Source of the DNA: Candidatus Bathyarchaeia archaeon
Lineage (GTDB): Archaea; Thermoproteota; Bathyarchaeia; Bathyarchaeales; Bathycorpusculaceae
Assembly: GCA_041447175.1 (NCBI GenBank)
Contig: CP166960.1
Span: forward strand, 383,365 to 447,364
Direction: 5' to 3'
Length of the DNA stretch: 64,000 bases
Each line of letters opens with the position of its first letter. Within the stretch, counting starts at the first letter, position 1. The notes below the pieces were generated by a model. It had not been told where the DNA came from. It saw nothing but the letters and a program-made list of their open reading frames with translations, and searched no databases. The position numbers and the translations under genes are program-made. Below, piece by piece: positions 15,969 to 21,137 of the stretch.

Positions 15969-16232
15969 TTAGTGGAAAGGAGAAAGAAGGTATGCAACAA
16001 TTGTTAGTGGTTTTTTTATATTCTTCCTTAATTCTGATTGTGTCAACTTGGGCAAAGAAATCAACACGACGGTTGCTGGACCAGCCGACTTCTCAACATT
16101 AACTTGACTTTGTTCTGCGAGTTTGAATTTTAGTCCTGCCCCTTCCGCTAATGTTTCGATTTCGTGTGCGATACCTGTTGACCCGACAGGGATGATTTCG
16201 TGAACAAACTCGAGTTTGCGAAGCGCTAAAAC
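15969..16232 (-). pseudogene. Fragment of a CblS-like (PurM-fold) gene, C-terminal third only
   Basis: The minus-strand frame from about 16229 to the stop at 15969 encodes LALRKLEFVHEIIPVGSTGI...FKLAEQSQVNVEKSAGPATVV, matching the last ~85 residues of the intact gene at 16869-17657 (LRRLEFVHEIIPVGSTGIAH and KKSAGPATVV). The DNA similarity is also obvious by eye. The upstream two thirds of the gene are missing; the ~20 codons before the match are unrelated. An acetyltransferase gene lies between the fragment and the intact copy. It is best read as the remnant of a duplication. Confidence 0.85.
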
Positions 16233-16326
16233 GCTGTTAATTCCAAATCTCACACAAGCTCTGGGTTGTATTAGAAAAATATTTCTGCAAACCACGTTTC
16301 ATACTATCAATTAGAGGTCTAAGCGA

Positions 16327-16868: not shown

Positions 16869-17657
16869 TCAGTTTGAAAGATGCGCAACACAGTTGATGG
16901 GTTTACTTACTGCGTTTTTCAGCTCAGACAGTTTCTGTTCGGATAATGCCGCTAAGACTACAGTTGCAGGACCCGCCGACTTCTTAACATCCACTTCCTG
17001 TTGCTCTGCGATTGTGAATTTGAGTTTGGCTCCTTTGGCTAAGGTTTCGACTTCGTGTGCGATGCCTGTTGAACCCACGGGGATGATTTCGTGAACAAAC
17101 TCCAGCCGCCGCAACGCCCAAACGTCGGTTGACTCTGCAATTTTGCCTTGGTTTTCTTCGGCTAAGACTTCGGCTCCAACGCAGGGAACCCCAACAGCCA
17201 CCACAACATCGCCTGCTTGGGCGGTGCCAATTTTAAGTTGCTCCTTGCGGCAGGTTCCCACAACCGTAACCCCAATGCCCGTCTGCTCCACCGCAATGTT
17301 CTTCTCCGTGCTGCCCGTCACCGCCAGCTTTGGGTCTAAGCCTGCCTTTTCTGCTTCATCTCGAATGCCGCGCAGGATTTCTGCACCCAGCGGTTCAGGC
17401 TCCACCCCCAACGCGTCTACAACGCAGACGGGGTTTGCACCAACAGCCAGAACCTCCATTAACGCCGCACGCGCCGTAAACTTGCCCAAAATGAAGCCGT
17501 CAACTTTCAGCTTATCCAGCGGCTTAGGACCAATGCCCCCCGCGGAGTCACAGCCCACAACCAGAACTTCGCCGCTGAGAAACTCAAAAAGCAGAACGTC
17601 GCGGTTGGTTTTTACAGGAAAAGGAAGAAGCGGGTTGGAGGGTGGGGTGGGGGTCAA
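16869..17657 (-). CDS. PurM/AIR-synthase-fold kinase-like protein, candidate alpha-ribazole kinase (CblS-like)
   Basis: 262 residues. The AIR-synthase/HypE/ThiL fold is visible: FLSGEVLVVGCDSAGGIGPK with an acidic residue in the nucleotide/metal site (D37), GKFTARAALMEVLAVGANP, VVDALGVEPEPLG (D81), STEKNIAVEQTGIGVTVVG, and the C-terminal domain LEFVHEIIPVGSTGIAHE...KSAGPATVVL. In Firmicutes, as I recall, CblS (alpha-ribazole kinase) belongs to this superfamily and works with the ECF transporter CblT. Here the upstream gene overlaps by four bases (TTGA, start TTG 17657) and is an ECF S-component, and cobT is nearby, so a role in salvaging the B12 lower-ligand nucleoside is a good inference. 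Other PurM-like functions remain possible. A degraded copy lies at 15969-16232 and a homologous domain is fused to a regulator at 20208. Confidence 0.65.
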   Translation of the reverse strand: MTPTPPSNPLLPFPVKTNRDVLLFEFLSGEVLVVGCDSAGGIGPKPLDKLKVDGFILGKFTARAALMEVLAVGANPVCVVDALGVEPEPLGAEILRGIRDEAEKAGLDPKLAVTGSTEKNIAVEQTGIGVTVVGTCRKEQLKIGTAQAGDVVVAVGVPCVGAEVLAEENQGKIAESTDVWALRRLEFVHEIIPVGSTGIAHEVETLAKGAKLKFTIAEQQEVDVKKSAGPATVVLAALSEQKLSELKNAVSKPINCVAHLSN

Positions 17658-18175
17658 AGTTTGAGTCTGCCTCTTATCCCAACATAGGCTAAGCCCGCAA
17701 TAAAGACGTTTAGGACCGCCGCCGCAAACACGAACGGGATGAACGCCAACGCCAGGGTTAAGCCGTAGTTGGGGTCAGGCACCACCACAAACGTGAACAA
17801 GGTATTGATGATTACGCCTGCTGCGAGGGCGGGGATGAAGCCCCCGGTTCTGTTCATCTTGTTGATTATGCCTATTGCGGCGCCTGCCAGAGCCATGCCC
17901 AACGCGATGGGAAGATGGAAGTAACCAAGAGGAAACCCGCTGACCACAGCAGTTGCCAAATGCCCCAACCCGCAGACCAACGCACCCTCTTTGGCTCCGA
18001 AGTAGAGGGCAACAAAGAAGCCTGCGGCGGAGTCAAGGGCAAGCGAGCCGACGGGGCTGGGGATTTTGAGAAAGGAGCCCGCAGCGCACAGCGCAGTGAA
18101 TATGGCTACGCGGGCAAGGCTCCACGTGGGGGAATTACGGGGAAGTTGGATTTGGGGTTGGGTTTTGTTTTGCAT
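17654..18175 (-). CDS. ECF transporter S-component-like membrane protein (CblT-like candidate)
   Basis: 173 residues with about five to six membrane segments: LARVAIFTALCAAGSFLKIP, LDSAAGFFVALYFGAKEGALVCGLGH, FHLPIALGMALAGAAIGI, FIPALAAGVIINTLFTFVV and LALAFIPFVFAAAVLNVFIAG. Short hydrophobic vitamin-specific subunits of ECF importers look like this. The energising EcfA/EcfT parts are not in the window and would be shared. It is the first gene of a two-gene operon with the CblS-like kinase and has a dedicated operator-like palindrome (18228-18245) just before its TATA box, so regulation together with cobT is likely. Alpha-ribazole or a related B12 precursor is the inferred substrate. Confidence 0.7.
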   Translation of the reverse strand: MQNKTQPQIQLPRNSPTWSLARVAIFTALCAAGSFLKIPSPVGSLALDSAAGFFVALYFGAKEGALVCGLGHLATAVVSGFPLGYFHLPIALGMALAGAAIGIINKMNRTGGFIPALAAGVIINTLFTFVVVPDPNYGLTLALAFIPFVFAAAVLNVFIAGLAYVGIRGRLKL

Positions 18176-18208: not shown

Positions 18209-18216
18209 AATAAAAG
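18209..18216 (-). promoter_or_regulatory. TATA box of the ECF S-component/CblS-like operon
   Basis: On the minus strand the word CTTTTATT lies about 35 bases before the ATG at 18175, which would put the transcription start about ten bases before the start codon. The operator palindrome ends 12 bases upstream of this box. The same box-to-operator layout is found in front of cobT. Confidence 0.65.
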
Positions 18217-18227
18217 CATTTGCGCAT

Positions 18228-18245
18228 ACACTACACCTGTAGTGT
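18228..18245. promoter_or_regulatory. Operator-like perfect palindrome upstream of the ECF S-component gene
   Basis: ACACTACA and TGTAGTGT flank a two-base centre (CC): an 18-bp perfect inverted repeat. The same core, with the same spacing to a flanking TAAAAGC-TTTGC sequence, recurs at 20182-20203. Two-fold symmetric sites of this size suit dimeric ribbon-helix-helix regulators, and such a regulator is encoded at 20208. Binding there would overlap the upstream promoter element on the minus strand. Confidence 0.75.
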
Positions 18246-18432: not shown

Positions 18433-19014
18433 TTAAGTTAAGGGTTTGCCTTTGCGCCACTCCCAAAACGTGCCCACATACATGCCCCAACTCCGCAGCT
18501 TAGGCGAAATCGTCCGAAGCAACGCAGGACACGAAATCAGCACGATAGGCAAGTTAATGGCAAACGTGGGCACCAAGATTTCCACGGCCTGAGTCGCCGT
18601 GAACAACTGCGGCAAAACAGTGTACTGCCAAAGAATGTAGCCCGTGCCAGCCAACAAACTTACCGCGTACACACCCAAAAGGGCAACGAGGCTTTTGCGT
18701 TTGCCATCTTCAGCAGCCCGCGAAGGCATAAACACCCAGTTCAGCAGGTAAATCAGCAGCGCCACCACCGCTTCAAACACGCCCAAAAAGCCCAGCCCTT
18801 CGACAAAGGCGCCTCCCATGAAACCGCCAATCATGACGCCCACCAAGCCGCTCCAGCCAAACCAAACGGGGAAAACGCCCAGCAGTATGATTGGTAGGTA
18901 AAGCAGGGTAAAGTTGGGTAGCGTGACGGAGTAGGATAGAAAGAAGAATATGGCGTAGAGTGCGGCGGACATGGCCATTATGGAGGCTTGCTTAGATTTG
19001 CTTAGATTCTGCAT
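18433..19014 (-). CDS. ECF transporter S-component-like membrane protein, second paralogue type
   Basis: 193 residues, about six membrane segments (for example ASIMAMSAALYAIFFFLSYS, LPIILLGVFPVWFGWSGLVG, VMIGGFMGGAFVEGLGFLGV, LVALLGVYAVSLLAGTGYIL). The size and opening helix agree with ECF S-components, but the sequence differs strongly from the neighbour at 17654, so the substrate is probably different. It begins 22 bp after cobT on the same strand and would be co-transcribed with it. A 250-bp region containing the operator of the next operon follows. The substrate is unknown; a corrinoid, the base dimethylbenzimidazole or another vitamin would suit the context. Confidence 0.65.
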   Translation of the reverse strand: MQNLSKSKQASIMAMSAALYAIFFFLSYSVTLPNFTLLYLPIILLGVFPVWFGWSGLVGVMIGGFMGGAFVEGLGFLGVFEAVVALLIYLLNWVFMPSRAAEDGKRKSLVALLGVYAVSLLAGTGYILWQYTVLPQLFTATQAVEILVPTFAINLPIVLISCPALLRTISPKLRSWGMYVGTFWEWRKGKPLT

Positions 19015-19036: not shown

Positions 19037-20128
19037 TTACTTGGAGTTTACTAGTTGCTCGTAGCTGCGCTCCACTTCTGCAAGCAAAGTCTGCTTGGTC
19101 ACTGCGCCTTCGGATTTGACCATGGCAGCGATTGCTGTGCCGCCTATGCCAACGCCCTCCTTGACCACGCCAGCCTCGTAAGCACGCAACCCACTAAACC
19201 GCGAACCACCAAAATCAAGGTCCGCAGCCAACACAGGCACATCCGCAATCTGGCTCACTATGCCGTTAAGGTCGGAAGTTTTGTCCTCCACAATCCACCG
19301 TGTTGTGCCGATGGCAACATTGCCCAAAACTTTTGGGTTTAAGCCGTTGACTACGGCAAGAACGGCGGTCATTTGGGTTCCGCCAGCCATAACCACAGGC
19401 ACACGCTCCGCCGCACCCAAAACCAAACCTGCAAAAACAGGCATCATAGGGTCACCCACAGCGGAAACCGCGCCCAGCGGGTCAGCCTTAAACGCGCCCA
19501 CAGCAGCACCAGCAGCTTTTAACCCAGCCTCAACGGTTTGCAGCTTCAAATCATGCGGATTCCCAGGCATGCTACTGCTCACCTTGCCCTCCCCATGGTA
19601 GCCCATAGCCTGCAAAACCCCCAGCGCCGTCGTGGTGCCCCCAGGAATGCTCTCGCCAATGACAAGATAATCTGCGGTTTCCGACAGGATGCGCCCCGCC
19701 AGCTTAGCACGCGCCAGCACCTCAGCCGCATCCTCAACTGCCTTGCCCGTGCGAATGTCCTTTCCGGGTTTTGCGCCTACATCCAAATACGGCACGTAGG
19801 GCAGAACCCGTAGTCCAGCATTCACCGGCAGCGCGGTCATGCCTGCCAGTTTAAGCGCGGACATGGTGACCAACGCGGGGGTGGGGATGCCGTCGGGGGT
19901 GACGGGAACGCCGTTGATGCATCGGCATTTGCCCAGCAAGAGGAGTTCGATGTCGGCGGGTGGGGTGTAGTCGGTTATGTCGGGGTTTGCGCCTGCAGCT
20001 GATAACCCAGGGATTTTGGCGGTCTGCGTCGTGCCAAGCGTACAAATGAATTGAGGCTTTTTGCCCTTGAGGTTCTGAAGGAAGGCTTCTCCTTTTTGCG
20101 GTTCGTGTGTAAATATGATGTCTTGCAT
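19037..20128 (-). CDS. cobT: Archaeal CobT-type nicotinate-nucleotide (base) phosphoribosyltransferase
   Basis: 363 residues from the ATG at 20128. The open frame extends to 20392, but that stretch overlaps the divergent regulator and the operator, so it is not coding. The sequence fits the archaeal CobT-like group: the N-terminal FICTLGTTQTAKIPGLSAAG, VTPDGIPTPALVTMSALKLAG, GESIPGGTTTALGVLQAMGY, GDPMMPVFAGLVLG and VVMAGGTQMTAVLAVV. CobT transfers ribose phosphate from nicotinate mononucleotide to the lower-ligand base, giving alpha-ribazole phosphate. The gene is divergent from the RHH-PurM regulator, with a shared 22-bp palindrome between, and is followed after 22 bp by an ECF S-component-like gene. 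Active-site residues were not checked individually. Confidence 0.88.
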   Translation of the reverse strand: MQDIIFTHEPQKGEAFLQNLKGKKPQFICTLGTTQTAKIPGLSAAGANPDITDYTPPADIELLLLGKCRCINGVPVTPDGIPTPALVTMSALKLAGMTALPVNAGLRVLPYVPYLDVGAKPGKDIRTGKAVEDAAEVLARAKLAGRILSETADYLVIGESIPGGTTTALGVLQAMGYHGEGKVSSSMPGNPHDLKLQTVEAGLKAAGAAVGAFKADPLGAVSAVGDPMMPVFAGLVLGAAERVPVVMAGGTQMTAVLAVVNGLNPKVLGNVAIGTTRWIVEDKTSDLNGIVSQIADVPVLAADLDFGGSRFSGLRAYEAGVVKEGVGIGGTAIAAMVKSEGAVTKQTLLAEVERSYEQLVNSK

Positions 20129-20164: not shown

Positions 20165-20172
20165 GATAAAAG
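20165..20172 (-). promoter_or_regulatory. TATA box of cobT
   Basis: On the minus strand CTTTTATC lies about 37 bases before the cobT ATG, so the start of transcription is expected about ten bases upstream of the gene. The operator palindrome ends nine bases upstream of the box. Read on the plus strand, GATAAAAG could serve the divergent regulator, with a start inside the operator. Confidence 0.6.
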
Positions 20173-20181
20173 CCTTTGCAC

Positions 20182-20203
20182 ACACACTACACATGTAGTG
20201 TGT
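20182..20203. promoter_or_regulatory. Operator-like 22-bp perfect palindrome between cobT and the RHH-PurM regulator gene
   Basis: Ten-base arms, ACACACTACA and TGTAGTGTGT, flank the centre CA. It ends four bases before the GTG start of the regulator and lies just upstream of the cobT TATA box, so one bound dimer could repress both directions. It shares its core with 18228-18245. This arrangement is typical of an autoregulated local regulator. Confidence 0.8.
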
Positions 20204-20207
20204 CCAC

Positions 20208-21137
20208 GTGAAAGTCACAAACATACGCATCTCAGAAAAAATCCTCGACGAAACCGACCAACTCGCAAAACAACACGGACTCAACCGCTCCGAAATCATC
20301 CGCCAAGCCCTAACCGTATACCTACACCTAATCCAAAACGTCGGCTCCCTGCTCCGCCCAATAGCCTTCCAAGTCAAACCCGCACAAATCACCTACACCA
20401 GACGCGGCGACATCACCGTCATGCAAATTCCCACAGGACACGCCATCGTGGTGGGCTCCACCTCTTCAGGCGCCGTCGGACCAAAACCCCAAGACAAAGT
20501 CAAAGTGAAAGGGCGCATCGTAGGCAAATTCCTTGCACGCGTGGCATTAATGGATGTGGTTGCGGTAGGCGCGTTTCCCGTGCTACTATCCGTAACCTTA
20601 GGCGTCGAAAAAGAACCCACAGGACACGAAATCTTGGAAGGCATCCGCAGCGAAGCCGTGGTTTTGGGTTTAGACCCCAACCAAGTAGTGCTGGAGAAAA
20701 CCGAAGAAAACTTCGCCACAGCCCAAACAGGTGCCGGCTTAACGGTGGTCGGCTTCGCAAACCAAGATGACTTGCGACTGGGCAAAACAGTACCCGGCGA
20801 TTTGCTAGTGGCGGTTGGCAAACCCAAAGTCGGCGAAGAAGTGATTCCCGCAGAAGTTCACGGCGAAATCGCGGACCTGCGTAACATGGCAACGCTTTCC
20901 CAGCGACGCTATGTGCATGATATTGTAGCTGTGGGTTCACAGGGCATCGCGTATGAGGCGCGTATGATGGCGTTTGCGGTTGGGCGACAACTCAAATTTG
21001 CCGAGCAAACTGCGGTGGATTTGGAGAAGTCAGCTGGTCCAGCTTCGGTTGTGCTGGTCACTTTGGACCCAAAACGGTTGGAGGATTTGGTTTTGCTGCT
21101 ACAAAAACCTGTAACGGTGATTGGCGAAATACTCTAA
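20208..21137 (+). CDS. Ribbon-helix-helix DNA-binding domain fused to a PurM-like domain; candidate regulator of B12 salvage
   Basis: 309 residues, GTG start at 20208. Residues 1-45 are a CopG/NikR-type RHH domain: strand KVTNIRISEKIL, helix DETDQLAKQHG, turn LNRSE, helix IIRQALTVYL. Residues about 68-309 match the CblS-like protein at 16869-17657 along their whole length (GPKP-DK-KV, GKF-AR-ALM, TE-N---QTG-G-TVVG, VHDIVAVGSQGIAYEA, EKSAGPASVVL). Two acidic residues kept in the CblS-like protein (D37, D81) are replaced here (T85 and V129), so catalysis is doubtful and ligand sensing is likely. The operator-like palindrome touches its start, and a second copy precedes the ECF/CblS-like operon. 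I infer a dimeric repressor or activator responding to alpha-ribazole, its phosphate or another cobamide precursor. Confidence 0.8.
   Translation: MKVTNIRISEKILDETDQLAKQHGLNRSEIIRQALTVYLHLIQNVGSLLRPIAFQVKPAQITYTRRGDITVMQIPTGHAIVVGSTSSGAVGPKPQDKVKVKGRIVGKFLARVALMDVVAVGAFPVLLSVTLGVEKEPTGHEILEGIRSEAVVLGLDPNQVVLEKTEENFATAQTGAGLTVVGFANQDDLRLGKTVPGDLLVAVGKPKVGEEVIPAEVHGEIADLRNMATLSQRRYVHDIVAVGSQGIAYEARMMAFAVGRQLKFAEQTAVDLEKSAGPASVVLVTLDPKRLEDLVLLLQKPVTVIGEIL

Follow-up and report, generated by a model that had tools for sequence, protein, structure and literature searches.

Two archaeal regulators of cofactor supply, ThiR and RbkR, join an HTH DNA-binding domain to a cofactor enzyme domain (ThiN in the former, riboflavin kinase in the latter) that acts as the sensor of its own pathway. 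The control of B12 supply in archaea is, to our knowledge, hardly known, and we know of no protein regulator that senses the lower-ligand branch rather than the corrinoid. The enzymatic side of this branch has been described in Firmicutes, where CblT and CblS are a transporter and an alpha-ribazole kinase (PMC6461909). Two further groups bear on the locus considered here: the CopG/NikR-type RHH regulators and archaeal aCcr1, which carry an N-terminal RHH domain, and the TrmBL1/Tgr-type dual regulators, in which one palindrome lies either upstream of BRE/TATA or over the transcription start, depending on the promoter, the upstream position giving activation and the position over the start giving repression (PMC4158304).

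The gene that we describe lies in a 64,000-nucleotide stretch (the window) of a Candidatus Bathyarchaeia archaeon genome, which comprises 2.73 Mb in one contig, and its product joins an RHH domain to an AIRS (PurM-fold) domain (Table 1). The AIRS domain is shared with CblS, from which the fusion differs by the extra RHH domain, by the loss of D37 and by forming a clade of its own. Like RbkR and ThiR, it combines a DNA-binding domain with an enzyme domain of the pathway in which its operator-predicted regulon lies, but it has RHH in place of HTH, AIRS/PurM in place of riboflavin kinase or ThiN, and B12 lower-ligand targets. The C-terminal ACT-like nickel-binding domain of NikR is absent, an AIRS domain standing in its place, and compared with TrmBL1/Tgr both the family and the ligand are unrelated, the dual role of the fusion being a prediction. 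We propose that this protein is probably a transcription factor, built from an RHH and a CblS-type domain, that represses its own gene and activates ECF-S genes and cobT when alpha-ribazole or its phosphate is scarce; if so, it would be the first lower-ligand sensor of this kind known to us. The literature searched held no description of an RHH plus AIR synthase regulator; the family is real and apparently undescribed, while the general kind, an enzyme-derived cofactor sensor, is already known.

Table 1. Features of the fusion locus (positions within the window)
Feature	Position	Strand	Basis
CblS-like alpha-ribazole kinase candidate	16869..17657	-	Pfam, similarity to fusion, bacterial gene context
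ECF-S1, CblT-like S-component	17654..18175	-	Pfam ECF families; pair with CblS in bacterial B12 clusters
TATA-like box GCTTTTAT on minus strand, 10 nt downstream of second operator towards ECF-S1	18210..18217		By eye
Second operator ACACTACACCTGTAGTGT, upstream of ECF-S1/CblS operon	18228..18245		Motif scan
ECF-S2, membrane protein read as ECF S-component, behind cobT	18433..19014	-	Hydropathy and one weak NCBIfam match
Archaeal cobT	19037..20128	-	TIGR00303, E 9e-117
TATA-like box ATAAAAGC, 10 nt from operator at 20184	20166..20173		By eye
Operator ACACTACACATGTAGTGT, common to fusion and divergent cobT promoters	20184..20201		Motif scan
RHH-AIRS fusion regulator, 309 aa	20208..21137	+	Pfam RHH_1 and AIRS; 36 genomes of class; AlphaFold2 mean pLDDT 88.6
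RHH DNA-binding domain, residues 1-45	20208..20342	+	Pfam match, orthologue alignment
AIRS/PurM-fold sensor domain, about residues 67-309	20406..21134	+	T85 at CblS D37 position

The open reading frame begins with GTG, and 34 full-length orthologues align from the same start. Pfam RHH_1 matches residues 4-39 (E 1.8e-7; 31.3 bits against a curated cut-off of 20.5) and AIRS (PF00586) matches residues 70-152 (E 2.1e-6, over the curated cut-off); 48% identity over 243 aa (E 4e-63) to the neighboring CblS-like protein bears out an earlier note on this DNA, which had read the gene as an RHH domain joined to a PurM-like domain matching that protein. The curated-score match assigns the fusion to the RHH (CopG/MetJ/Arc) class, and the conserved palindrome described below is a predicted dimer site; the best NCBIfam match, under the family cut-off, is aCcr1. 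Residues N5, R7, R27, S28, E29, R32 and Q33 of the RHH domain are invariant among the 34 aligned orthologues. In the AlphaFold2 model the RHH part reaches a pLDDT of only 61-84, which is no surprise where folding depends on dimerization. The model recovers the AIRS fold: the best structural match of the AIRS part is SelD (3u0o; Z 21.7, 233 residues, 3.3 A), HypE, ThiL and PurM structures also match, and a model of the CblS-like protein leads to the same families. The AIRS domain of the fusions is strongly conserved, with many invariant positions, which suggests that something is still bound there.

The fusion is present in 36 of 257 Bathyarchaeia genomes and was found only in this class. Relatives with names are all Candidatus Bathyarchaeota, although a few of the records give other phylum names; they include the termite-gut Bathycorpusculum, Bathyarchaeum tardum and Hecatella orcuttiae, which branches deeply. 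The 257-genome class set and the named set overlap, their counts are not summed, and many genomes are metagenome bins, which makes absences soft. Bacterial relatives in the named collection match the AIRS part only (29-47% identity), and a search of viral contigs gave no relatives. In a tree of 83 AIRS domains all fusions group in a single clade (support 100/98), which falls within archaeal CblS or next to it; the tree gives good support to the archaeal set taken together, without singling out a nearest archaeal CblS. Judged by this tree, the family has a single origin.

The CblS label holds because operons for B12 salvage in bacteria contain relatives of the kinase candidate, placed after a CblT-like ECF subunit; the assignment is made by this context and by homology. 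Such relatives occur in Halanaerobiales, Cytobacillus, Lentibacillus, Psychrobacillus, Sporosarcina and others, often directly behind an S-component homologous to ECF-S1 and in some cases in clusters with cbiB and cobD. In Cytobacillus firmus the neighbors are CobU, CobS, CobC (alpha-ribazole phosphatase) and PduO, and loci L154-L162 hold clusters with cbiB, cobD, cobU, cobS, cobC and pduO, in which an ECF-S gene is followed by the CblS-like gene. Genes for CblT and CblS would be expected to lie in this way, and the archaeal ECF-S1/CblS pair matches the bacterial one in order and sequence. The source genome also encodes CobS, which consumes alpha-ribazole phosphate, as well as two proteins of the EcfT/CbiQ type, possible partners of the S-components. 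A truncated second copy of the CblS-like C-terminus (15969-16295, minus strand), 65% identical to residues 177-260 of the full-length protein, is probably a pseudogene from a duplication. ECF-S2, which elsewhere stands alone and is preceded by the operator, gave no significant profile match to ECF-S1; a close homology of the two was rejected on this ground, and the reading of ECF-S2 as an S-component accordingly depends on hydropathy and the NCBIfam match. A sequence search of solved structures returned no match for ECF-S1 or ECF-S2.

The predicted operator is an 8-2-8 palindrome with the consensus RYAYTACA-NN-TGTARTRY. Its perfect copies number exactly two in the entire source genome, both in the window, where 0.08 matches are expected by chance; the palindromes that the note had placed at 20182 and 18228 are thus real, the former beginning at 20184. 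A search of the source genome for a wider regulon gave as many matches with up to two mismatches as the control (17 and 17). Among orthologues, an operator scoring at least 14/16 precedes the fusion in 23/34, as against 0.15% of shuffled sequences. Where the fusion lies away from B12 genes, four of five perfect copies at unlinked loci precede an ECF-S2 orthologue, and at lone ECF-S2 promoters (those not behind cobT) the operator reaches at least 14/16 in 16 of 18, as against 0.6% of shuffles. A search with ECF-S2 gave strong matches in 22 genomes, all but one with the fusion (21/22; p 3e-20, kinship ignored), and a composite-motif scan of 37 genomes placed 24 of its 25 matches with at most one mismatch at ECF-S1, ECF-S2, cobT or the fusion. 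No such operator stands at ECF-S1 or CblS in six genomes without the fusion. A different palindrome, about GGATGGATWANCCATCC, precedes the ECF-S1/CblS operon in fusion-less Bathyarchaeia (L041, L040, L043), a hint that these control the pathway by another regulator. One genome (G089; L192, L213), 82% complete, has a perfect operator before ECF-S2 and no fusion that we found, a gap likely due to its incompleteness. The cobT gene itself is without an operator in most genomes; one genome (G127) has three cobT copies, of which the copy in an operon with ECF-S2 has the operator in front.

The earlier note had pointed to the place next to cobT and had held that a fusion occurring without B12 genes would tell against a role in B12 salvage. 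The position is as described in the window and does not generalize: most fusions lie elsewhere, many adjoining coaD, pantoate kinase and ECF-S-like genes on the opposite strand, and the idea that the family always stands beside B12 genes was rejected. By position, then, the fusion does occur without B12 genes, yet by regulon it does not, as operators mark ECF-S genes and CobT is present in 33/36 fusion genomes (p 3e-18, kinship ignored). A DNA-binding regulator of lower-ligand supply is well supported by operator and regulon; the ligand that the note had suggested stays a guess. In one genus, convergent coaD, pantoate kinase and an ECF S-like membrane protein form a conserved neighborhood of the fusion (L054, 936-3069 bases from the fusion start; about 15 other loci), in which pantothenate or pantoate may be what the membrane protein carries. 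At three loci (L067, L068, L070) thiT (TIGR02357) and an AIRS-family gene lie downstream of the fusion, a further ECF-S/AIRS pair that perhaps serves as thiamine importer and kinase. Four genomes (G082, G090, G102, G108) have the fusion, and neither ECF-S2 nor CblS was found in them; three carry weak operators (at most 13/16). The regulon may have shifted in the termite-gut-type genomes G082, G102 and G108, where the operator is weak and the fusion is followed by thiT and an AIRS-family gene.

The operator occurs in two geometries. At the ECF-S and cobT promoters it lies upstream of the TATA-like box, adjoining the BRE position at a spacing of 10 nt. The promoter of the fusion itself has it on the other, downstream side of the box, where transcription is expected to start; the boxes were assigned by eye, and divergent promoters need one box serving both directions. 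All 18 lone ECF-S2 promoters have the box at exactly 10 nt beyond the operator, in one case in variant form, and the same spacing is found in 12/13 promoters common to the fusion and cobT or ECF-S1. Lone fusion promoters with a recognizable box have, with one exception, spacings of 5-9 nt, and their difference from the divergent ones has a p of 2e-6 (kinship ignored). Together with the archaeal position rule, this geometry predicts self-repression and activation of transport and cobT. The protein could instead repress at every site, its BRE-adjacent binding blocking TFB/TBP so that the targets rise once it leaves the DNA. We regard this as quite possible, if short of probable: the majority of archaeal regulators repress (PMC4158304), and the palindrome comes within about 10 nt of the TATA-like box, near enough for steric blocking, but the spacing is exactly 10 nt in the lone ECF-S2 promoters and in 12/13 divergent ones and 5-9 nt in almost every lone fusion promoter, a pattern that a contact with TFB/TBP would explain better than simple blocking, although phylogeny could explain it too.

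We propose that fusion dimers would bind the 8-2-8 palindrome, repressing their own gene when bound over its start and most likely activating the ECF-S and cobT promoters when bound just upstream of BRE/TATA while alpha-ribazole (or its phosphate) is scarce. The CblS-type domain, probably inactive as a kinase, would still bind the substrate or product of CblS, and a ligand in the pocket would stop activation. Alpha-ribazole phosphate would be supplied by two routes, salvage of alpha-ribazole through ECF-S1 and CblS, and a base route through CobT and possibly ECF-S2 as a base importer, between which the fusion would keep the balance. That CobT is so frequent in fusion genomes and present in 0/6 CblS genomes without the fusion places the regulator mainly where both routes can exist, as expected of a balancing device. 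Sequence establishes the architecture of the fusion, its single origin, the loss of D37, the operator, the regulon and the geometry, whereas DNA binding, the ligand, the loss of catalysis, the sign of control and the substrate of ECF-S2 are inferred. The fuller reading, a new archaeal family that uses a dead alpha-ribazole kinase to sense the lower-ligand nucleoside and acts through one operator in two geometries for self-repression and activation of uptake, we put forward tentatively, at slightly under even chances. Regulator and regulon would stand unchanged if the ligand were a corrinoid (cobinamide, cobamide), the free benzimidazole base or ATP/ADP. Duplicated sensor domains can switch ligand, and the most widespread of the targets, ECF-S2, could bring in either a corrinoid or a base; we nevertheless consider a different ligand unlikely, as the AIRS fold and CblS ancestry favor a nucleoside or nucleotide and alpha-ribazole phosphate is where all the targets in the window (cobT, ECF-S1, CblS) lead.

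The presumed loss of catalysis is read from the alignment with CblS, in which the replacements noticed earlier, D37 by T85 and D81 by V129, are seen as stated; that key acids are lost holds for the first and not for the second. The D37 position is Asp in 54/54 unfused CblS-like proteins (19 archaeal and 35 bacterial) and Thr (29) or Ser (5) in the 34 fusions. D81, by comparison, is Asp in just 9/19 archaeal and 12/35 bacterial unfused proteins, so its change to V129 means little. Comparison with a ThiL/AIRS family profile, built from the source genome and a related genome, gave a probability of 98% (E 8.5e-13) and aligned D37 with the conserved ThiL Asp in "KADM", which we take to bind metal, D20 with the GDD Asp, E68 with the "SD" Asp and D81 with a Ser; D81 was rejected as a catalytic acid. 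The GDD loop of ThiL contacts the nucleotide (PMC6416309). The acids at D20/D68 and E68/D116 (CblS/fusion numbering) are kept, so that, by alignment, each fusion has lost one of the acids of the site and retained two. K119 was rejected as a CblS marker, being invariant in archaeal CblS only. A fusion that had kept its alpha-ribazole kinase activity alongside the regulatory role would have a precedent in archaeal RbkR, regulator and riboflavin kinase in one (PMC8305020), and could draw on the retained D68, D116 and most fold residues and on the lack of a separate CblS in many fusion genomes; the substitution of D37 throughout the family, further changes at the G115, S116 and E68 positions, and the 13 genomes that keep both fusion and CblS make it improbable. 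That the palindrome belongs to another regulator, with the fusion a bystander, finds some encouragement in G089 and is very improbable: fusion promoters carry the site in different genera, ECF-S2 genes unlinked to the fusion carry it in fusion genomes, and it is absent from ECF-S1 promoters of fusion-less genomes, some of which have another palindrome.

Anoxic sediments, soils and termite guts are rich in Bathyarchaeia, which make use of B12-dependent enzymes. A defined regulator with a sharp operator and a small regulon makes archaeal B12 control directly testable, and the two-geometry operator offers a clean test case for switching between activation and repression in archaea. The regulon provides a functional clue to the ECF-type membrane protein ECF-S2 and extends CblT/CblS salvage to archaea.
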